49,406 bases of DNA. It comes from Bacteroidia bacterium. GTDB taxonomy: Bacteria > Bacteroidota > Bacteroidia > NS11-12g > UBA955. Under the pieces are notes generated by a model. That model did no database searches and was not told where the DNA came from. It was given only the letters and a program-made list of their open reading frames with translations. The position numbers were made by a program, and so were the translations under genes. Below are positions 49,225 through 49,406 of this stretch, in pieces; the first letter of the stretch is position 1, and every line of letters begins with the position of its first letter. The stretch is from positions 19,495 to 68,900 of the forward strand of contig JAOASJ010000050.1 of the NCBI GenBank assembly GCA_030158725.1, given 5' to 3'.

Positions 49225-49255
49225 TTTGCATAGAAAATTTAAAATTCTATATTTG
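49225..49255 (+). promoter_or_regulatory. Perfect promoter of the tRNA-Asn region
   Basis: TTTG (49225-49228), exactly 19 nt, TATATTTG (49248-49255), the best promoter match in the window. The predicted start near 49262 precedes the tRNA-like fragment and the tRNA. Confidence 0.8.
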
Positions 49256-49273
49256 CACTCCTTTTAGGAAGAT

Positions 49274-49316
49274 TCCTTGATAGCTCTCCCGATAGCTATC
49301 GGGAGGTTAGAGCGAG
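49274..49316 (+). pseudogene. tRNA-Asn 5' fragment with an 18-nt palindrome in the D-loop
   Basis: TCCTTGATAGCTC (49274-49286) and GGTTAGAGCGAG (49305-49316) are identical to positions 1-13 and the D-loop/stem region of the tRNA-Asn 80 bp downstream. Between them, in place of AGCT, stands TCCCGATAGCTATCGGGA (49287-49304), a perfect palindrome that keeps AGCT at its centre. The RNA would have a D-arm lengthened by a seven-pair stem. Nothing of the anticodon arm, T-arm or 3' acceptor follows, so it cannot be a working tRNA. It lies just after the promoter and would be transcribed with the tRNA. Confidence 0.8.
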
Positions 49317-49353
49317 AAGAATCAAACTTTAACTAAAAATAAATCGGACATAT

Positions 49354-49406
49354 TCCTTGATAGCTCAGCTGGTTAGAGCGAGTGACTGTTAATCACTAGG
49401 TCCCTG
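49354..49406 (+). tRNA. tRNA-Asn (anticodon GTT), 3' part beyond the window
   Basis: Acceptor TCCTTGA, then TA, D-arm GCTC...GAGC, and an anticodon stem AGTGA/TCACT around loop CTGTTAA, giving anticodon GTT (Asn). The sequence stops within the variable/T-arm region because the window ends. Confidence 0.93.

Follow-up and report, generated by a model that had tools for sequence, protein, structure and literature searches.

A truncated copy of tRNA-Asn, with a palindrome in place of its D-loop, stands shortly before the proper tRNA-Asn gene at the end of a Bacteroidia contig. This arrangement is real, neither chance nor artefact, and it is one case of a wider arrangement. In several related genomes, the order of a tRNA, a small GIY-YIG nuclease gene and tRNA pieces points to a selfish element that would break up an essential tRNA gene while providing an intact copy of it. 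On balance, we consider it somewhat more probable than its negation that the fragment described here represents the 5' side of a GIY-YIG cassette of the homing type, which splits the tRNA-Asn gene, brings an intact rescue tRNA with it and multiplies in tandem. Relatives have the nuclease and the 3' pieces at the place where our contig breaks off. The main weakness is that no such nuclease was found in the same genome, and that most stubs elsewhere stand alone.

The stub and its surroundings in the window

The window is the whole stretch of DNA that was analysed, 49,406 nucleotides from contig JAOASJ010000050.1 of assembly GCA_030158725.1 (positions 19,495 to 68,900, forward strand). Its own genome is referred to as G000, and other G numbers are genomes of a 59-genome search set, which includes it. 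The features of the locus are as follows.

49225–49255, plus strand: promoter of the tRNA-Asn transcript, from sequence reading; TTTG (49225–49228), 19 nt, TATATTTG (49248–49255)
49256–49271, plus strand: leader CACTCCTTTTAGGAAG, 16 nt; precedes intact tRNA-Asn directly, in identical form in G008 and nearly so in G014, G004 and G002
49272–49286, plus strand: left part of the 5' stub (2 leader nt, acceptor 5' strand and D-stem 5' strand of tRNA-Asn); exact repeat of 49352–49366
49287–49304, no strand: palindrome TCCCGATAGCTATCGGGA replacing the D-loop AGCT, from direct reading and repeat search; single copy in its own genome
49305–49316, plus strand: right part of the 5' stub (D-loop end, D-stem 3' strand and anticodon-stem start); exact repeat of 49371–49382
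49317–49351, plus strand: spacer from the stub to the proper tRNA, 35 nt, variable by column variation in nine genomes; pairing possible with GTTAGAG of the stub
49354–49406, plus strand: first 53 nt of the proper tRNA-Asn (GTT), after AT; Rfam RF00005, 31.9 bits, cut at the 3' end

According to the initial annotation, the stub copies part of a tRNA and has a palindrome inserted in the D-loop. Direct reading together with a repeat search bears this out: ATTCCTTGATAGCTC at 49272–49286 is found again at 49352–49366, and GGTTAGAGCGAG at 49305–49316 again at 49371–49382. Its count of 25 identical tRNA bases around the insert is correct when made from tRNA nucleotide 1 (13 + 12); the whole stub (49272–49316, 45 nt) has 27 bases in common with the tRNA-Asn region on the two sides of the palindrome, 2 of them lying before nucleotide 1. 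The palindrome TCCCGATAGCTATCGGGA is perfect over 18 nt, or over 20 nt when the flanking C and G are included. The proper tRNA-Asn begins 37 nt past the end of the stub, which stands under the promoter of this tRNA. The coordinates 49225–49255 agree with the promoter that had been proposed, TTTG, 19 nt and then TATATTTG, which we take to be of the Bacteroidota type. The ATATTTGCACTCC promoter block is conserved in relatives whether or not they have a stub, including those in which it runs directly into tRNA-Asn.

The window ends where contig C50 of G000 (68,900 bases) ends, leaving the tRNA-Asn cut at 53 nt. The tRNA-Asn that had been called intact is thus present, but its wholeness is known from relatives only because the contig end cuts it; a whole tRNA-Asn follows the stub in G001, G007, G010 and G011. 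ARAGORN gave no tRNA call in the window for the cut gene, and the stub, called by neither ARAGORN nor Rfam, does not form a complete cloverleaf. The G000 assembly consists of 131 contigs, and of the 19 tRNA matches that Rfam gave in it, 4 are no more than 10 nt away from a contig end (C93, C106, C16 and C40; L084, L085, L088 and L090), which hints at repeated tRNA flanks there too. Tests with 13 and 14 nt found no further partial copies beside other tRNAs of G000.

Stubs and palindromes in the genus and the phylum

Five further genomes of the genus have the stub unit before their tRNA-Asn, once in G001, G007 and G011, three times in G010 and at least three times in G006, where the array runs off the contig. 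As the unit recurs in these five genomes, a chance origin of the stub is excluded. The leader is joined straight to tRNA-Asn, with no stub, in G008, G014, G004, G016 and G002, and no 3'-like piece lies near tRNA-Asn within the sequence examined from G008, G014 and G016. The stub and the tRNA of PH2015 alike read GAGCGAC, as against GAGCGAG in the others. Just before tRNA-Asn in G015 (L048), an apparent degraded stub with an unrelated hairpin (TAACCCA..TGGGTTTA) occupies the same position as the stub of the window. In G008, 5' stubs are found at Ala, Val, Met and Arg; across the genus, the stubs at Ala and Val show local decay.

An exact D-loop-plus-palindrome pattern was scanned over a species-genome collection of 84,980 genomes, yielding 69 stretches. 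By title these are Bacteroidota, except for one Chlorobiota MAG, one 'Rickettsiales' MAG and two 'bacterium' MAGs; some lie in the window's genus, and named strains of Salinimicrobium, Gramella, Marinoscillum, Chryseolinea, Lacihabitans and Jiulongibacter are included. An intact tRNA with a matching 5' end (at least 10 of 13 nt) is found within 1000 nt in 56 of the 69 stretches and within 150 nt in 53, and the tRNAs after the 56 stubs represent 11 amino acids and 15 anticodons. Among the 13 stretches with no following tRNA, 7 end 130 nt or less from the stub. Some stubs carry extra hairpins or inserts, located in the anticodon arm (L147, L149, L155, L187, L194) or in the T-loop (L145, L191). 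In an even draw of 395 phylum genomes, only the window's own genome had the exact pattern, so the exact hairpin-in-D-loop form is rare.

These occurrences bear on the idea of an assembly artefact or a contamination of the metagenome-assembled genome. The window's position at a contig end in a 131-contig assembly, together with the other tRNA matches at contig ends, speaks for it. However, the unit is present in five other genomes of the genus and in the complete PacBio genome of UKL13-3, and loci of the same kind occur in named Salinimicrobium, Gramella and Marinoscillum strains. We regard this explanation as hardly credible, and for the arrangement as a kind it was rejected on the recurrence in the genus and in the complete PacBio genome.

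Palindromes of this type had also been described as scattered repeats in the phylum. This holds for the genus, where 12 of 17 genomes together have 63 exact copies of TCCCGATAGCTATCGGGA (between 0 and 13 in each genome), dispersed and identical as in a REP/MITE-like repeat, but not for the window's own genome, which has a single copy even when up to 3 mismatches over 20 nt are allowed, along with one other CCCGATNNNNATCGGG. The search that had been proposed for the 18-mer in the genome and its relatives accordingly returned many copies in the genus but no second one in G000. By eye, 21 of the 63 copies lie inside partial tRNA copies, and a stricter rule (same tRNA on both flanks, at least 7 nt each and together at least 19), applied with no control, gave 16 of 63. 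A looser automatic rule, in which both flanks match a tRNA over 8 and 6 nt, was dropped as too loose (30/63 compared with 192/570 random positions).

Palindromes are also found outside tRNA. At 17 of the 63 places the palindrome lies at the centre of a CTTCGAC..CAG-type repeat; here, the centre of a dispersed repeat of type CTTCGACTNCGCTCAG is replaced by it (L102, L107, L109, L115–L122, L130, L133, L135, L137, L139). In G008 and G010 (L064, L067, L068, L069) it stands in similar non-tRNA contexts such as ..TTGCCTTCCTC-palindrome-CCTGTTGC.., which may lie within a gene family.

A mobile palindrome alone might account for these observations: a REP- or MITE-like hairpin would enter hairpin tips, including the arms of tRNAs, and would survive only in partial tRNA duplicates, the GIY-YIG genes being a separate tRNA-loving family. 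The 63 exact copies in 12 of 17 genomes and their presence within another repeat are in line with this, as is the finding that, with the palindrome removed, the junction forms a hairpin tip at 24 of 53 distinct sites, compared to 559/2280 random positions and 495/2120 shuffles. Most stub loci also have no GIY-YIG gene nearby. Such an element, however, leaves unexplained why the intact tRNA has 5' pieces on its upstream side and 3' pieces on its downstream side, why some nuclease ORFs end inside 3' pieces, and why the unlike hairpins TCCGCCGCGGCGGA, TCCCGAAGCATCGGGA and TCCCGTAGGTACGGGA are used in the same way. We judge this explanation unlikely as a complete account, although not negligible. 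The earlier proposal, in which a mobile palindrome enters a tRNA duplicate and the 3' end is lost afterwards, keeps its dispersed palindrome but looks too simple given the 3' pieces, the GIY-YIG gene and the many tRNAs involved. It covers part of the picture; a larger share seems to fall to the nuclease and the 3' pieces.

Alternatively, in line with the second reading of the initial annotation, the stub could be a structured leader module under selection, for example one tuning the processing or the dosage of the downstream tRNA. When one unit from each of nine genomes was compared, the stub plus hairpin showed 3 variable columns in 45 as opposed to 23 in 36 for the spacer (Fisher 3e-8). A spacer-stub pairing of 7 pairs is possible in eight of these nine genomes, weak evidence in that the pairs were maximised and the variation is on one side only. 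The PH2015 stub, moreover, tracks its own tRNA. Against a functional RNA, the affected tRNAs differ between species, several genus members have no Asn stub, and the Ala and Val stubs have partly decayed. Homogenisation with the neighbouring tRNA could mimic selection, accounting for the conserved tRNA part of the stub but not for its constant hairpin. We consider this explanation improbable.

GIY-YIG nuclease genes and 3' pieces at tRNA loci

Partial self-copies were sought beside the tRNAs of five genomes, which were taken regardless of stubs and up to 30 loci each. They were found beside Met, initiator-type Met (in tandem), Asn, Ser, another Met (3' pieces) and Leu in G001; beside Val, Ala, Met, Arg and Pro in G008; beside Asn, two Thr, Leu and Arg in UKL13-3; and beside Gly, Asp, Pro and others in Salinimicrobium. 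Some of the scores of at least 24 in this census (31, 31, 28, 33 and 19 tRNAs of G001, G008, UKL13-3, Salinimicrobium and G000) come from complete tRNAs next door (Thr/Gly, tandem Asn, Lys, Glu), and the sorting was done by eye; a control with another tRNA was positive in 6/62, 2/61, 6/56, 10/64 and 1/34 flanks, partly from full neighbouring tRNAs. One search for pieces took in plus-strand tRNAs only and missed the others.

Usually 5' pieces lie upstream of the tRNA and 3' pieces downstream, the exception being a middle piece of Arg downstream in UKL13-3. In several relatives the downstream 3' piece has a hairpin in the T-arm or the anticodon arm, with a small GIY-YIG gene in between. The hairpins vary between pieces (TCCGCCGCGGCGGA, TCCCGAAGCATCGGGA, TCCCGTAGGTACGGGA, TCCCGAGTACTCGGGA, TCACGCCCTACAGCGTGA and others) and are absent from a few, such as Arg-CCT in G008. 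Two repeats 131 bp apart, each with a 3' tRNA-Asn piece, lie downstream of tRNA-Asn in G002 (L046/L017), with no nuclease gene in the sequence examined. In Salinimicrobium xinjiangense (L300–L301), tandem intact tRNA-Lys genes are flanked by a partial 3' copy and hairpins (TCCCGATAATAATCGGGA, TCCCGAGGGA).

Arrays on both sides of the tRNA are found in UKL13-3, a complete genome sequenced by PacBio at 112x (PMC5248499). Eleven tandem units, each a 5' piece with its hairpin and exactly 80 nt long, are followed by an intact tRNA-Asn and by eight tandem nuclease units spaced 410 or 416 bp apart, in each of which the end of the GIY-YIG ORF (..ITVNQ*) runs into the anticodon region of a 3' tRNA-Asn piece. 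These 3' pieces have the T-loop hairpin CCCCGATAGCTATCGGGG in seven of the eight units and a decayed form of it in the outermost. Spacer differences along the 5' array are 7, 5, 6 and then 0 in 8 units, and the GIY units themselves show 0, 0, 1, 1, 2, 1, 20 and 21 differences. Thus the diverged units are the outermost on both sides, as expected if new units arise beside the intact tRNA. The numbers of 5' and GIY units, 11 and 8, are unequal.

Other loci vary this order. At Val in G004, the 5' piece, tRNA, nuclease and 3' piece follow one another, and the codons of the ORF end (..MLVQSIPH*) pass through the D-arm copy into the hairpin. The same order is seen at Asn in G010, where the nuclease is preceded by one 3' piece and followed by another that is degraded. 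A tRNA and a nuclease are followed by tRNA-derived sequence past the stop codon at Leu in G001 and Asn in G012, both with no 5' stub, and at Met in G027 and in Marinoscillum. No clear tRNA piece follows other listed nucleases, for example those at Asn in G001, Prado080 and G004. In UBA2371, three 419-bp units of promoter, 5' piece and nuclease (the last with an assembly gap) precede tRNA-Met; here the nuclease lies between the 5' stub and the tRNA, not after the tRNA. Eight proteins from relatives' loci, chosen from matches of a purpose-built profile, were tested with PF01541, and all eight scored above the cut-off for this GIY-YIG catalytic domain; the L019 protein is probably unrelated.

Three genomes, G001, UKL13-3 and Salinimicrobium, together have 18 GIY-YIG loci of small size (<250 aa), and 8 of these lie at most 1 kb downstream of a same-strand tRNA, versus 0.10 expected (P about 4e-14, with the 1-kb limit set after inspecting the data). 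By genome this amounts to 4/4 in G001, 1/4 in UKL13-3 and 3/10 in Salinimicrobium, where two of the three loci are interrupted by a stop within the matched frame; in G001, three of the four nuclease-adjacent tRNAs have a 5' stub (P 0.003). The other 10 of the 18 loci are not downstream of a tRNA, one of them lying just upstream of one. No small GIY-YIG gene was found in G000 or G008, whose PF01541 matches are ORFs of 612 and 485 aa (two matches) and of 612 and 479 aa, respectively. Among the 56 stub loci that are followed by an intact tRNA, 10 have a GIY-YIG gene within 1.7 kb; over the sequence examined, the count is 12 of all 69. With so few stub loci near such a gene, the majority of stubs would have to be relics, or else the hairpin element moves on its own.

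A nuclease tree of 26 rows was built from 22 of 24 tRNA-adjacent candidates (two were too short) and 4 of 10 lone loci. Only 5 of its 23 inner branches are well supported, and there is no clear grouping by tRNA type. The four lone genes and the Asn-adjacent nuclease of G004 form a well-supported group (100/99), with the Val nuclease of G004 nearby at weak support. The Asn-adjacent nuclease of G004 is probably unrelated to the cassette and adjacent by chance.

In relatives, ORFs abut or enter 3' tRNA pieces, and the presumed target, an uninterrupted leader-tRNA-Asn, is seen in G008, G014 and G016; the window itself shows the 5' side only of the presumed split tRNA-Asn gene. Integrative elements that target tRNA genes by an integrase typically betray themselves by a partial tRNA copy next to the intact tRNA. 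A stub could accordingly be the attachment-site scar of such an element. Units of 80 or 410 bp, their tandem repetition, the 5' pieces and the D-loop hairpins are at odds with such a scar, and the genes seen between pieces are GIY-YIG nucleases, making this a very improbable origin. Two further candidates were rejected. A group I intron was dismissed on the finding that tRNA families alone reached the Rfam gathering score in the window and in 10 relatives' loci. A phage origin was dismissed on the presence of the stub pattern in 0 viral contigs and on the G010 nuclease, the one protein searched, which has no relative in viral contigs or phage records. Against solved structures, the best match of the G010 nuclease was a UPF0213 protein (E 0.01).

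The proposed cassette and its precedents

The full cassette order, as found in relatives, is promoter, 5' piece with D-loop hairpin, spacer, intact tRNA, terminator, GIY-YIG gene, 3' piece and terminator, the 3' piece being derived from the same tRNA and having its hairpin in the T-arm or anticodon arm. A few genomes have this full anatomy; parts of it are found at many tRNAs, and tandem arrays of pieces occur on both sides of tRNAs. For the favoured reading, a GIY-YIG cassette, we infer the following steps: the nuclease would cut an uninterrupted tRNA gene; repair from a cassette-bearing copy would split the cut gene; the intact tRNA within the cassette would keep the cell alive; and tandem arrays would arise by repeated cutting and recombination, or by re-insertion into the intact copy. 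The hairpins may keep the pieces from folding as tRNA or from being recut, a putative role in inactivating or immunising the stubs. In G000, the nuclease side may be unassembled or lost, with the assembly ending inside the tRNA.

A more specific version can be offered only tentatively. It would be a natural homing-rescue system, in which chromosomal GIY-YIG nucleases split essential tRNA genes and survive via the intact copy that they carry, hairpins in place of the D, anticodon and T loops, by which a tRNA is recognised, leave the split pieces neither cut nor folded as tRNA, and re-homing into the rescue copy leads to nested arrays such as 11 5' pieces, the tRNA and 8 units of nuclease plus 3' piece. 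The cassette reading is weakened by the different order in UBA2371, by the palindrome in non-tRNA repeats and by the unequal unit numbers of UKL13-3.

Several known systems share some of these traits. Group I introns with homing endonuclease genes place a nuclease gene inside a split tRNA gene, as here, but at the stub loci a second, intact tRNA, not splicing, keeps the function. Rickettsia palindromic elements, REP and MITE are short dispersed palindromes which may enter genes and RNAs; unlike these, the palindromes described here often lie within partial tRNA copies and within other hairpins, and several unrelated hairpins are used alike. Downstream of E. coli tyrT there are repeats with partial 3' ends of tRNA-Tyr (rtT RNA), which resemble the stub loci as tandem partial tRNA copies beside an intact tRNA; we know of no hairpin replacement or nuclease gene in them. 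Cleave-and-rescue or homing-rescue gene drives are synthetic and direct a nuclease against an essential gene while supplying an intact copy. The proposed cassette would likewise combine a nuclease with an intact copy, but it would be natural and tRNA-based, with putative cleavage.

The nearest tested precedent for the cassette mechanism is SegB of phage T6, a GIY-YIG enzyme encoded beside tRNA-Tyr. It causes tRNA-Tyr and segB to be amplified together in tandem, and the 5' end of the tRNA has microhomology to the 3' end of segB (PMC13096335). This free-standing enzyme of T-even phages resembles the stub loci in having a small GIY-YIG gene beside a tRNA that is amplified in tandem with it, and in the sequence that the tRNA 5' region has in common with the 3' end of the nuclease gene; here, some ORFs end inside tRNA sequence. 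In contrast, the stub loci are chromosomal, lie in Bacteroidota, involve many tRNAs and have broken 5' and 3' hairpin pieces around one intact tRNA. Among the matches listed by full-text searches of a paper collection with few subscription journals, no description of hairpin-bearing tRNA stubs or tRNA-splitting GIY-YIG genes in Bacteroidota was found.

The replacement of a loop by a hairpin is striking under any mechanism. Cassettes of this kind could account for tRNA genes at contig ends in such genomes; tRNA-Asn is among the genes missing from the Illumina assembly of UKL13-3, as stated in its report (PMC5248499). If the favoured reading is true, these cassettes would be a source of change in tRNA copy number and would provide many loci at which to study how GIY-YIG enzymes choose tRNA genes. 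Essential tRNA genes of some Bacteroidota would then host a selfish nuclease that breaks and replaces its own target, a bacterial counterpart of phage SegB and a natural parallel to engineered rescue drives.
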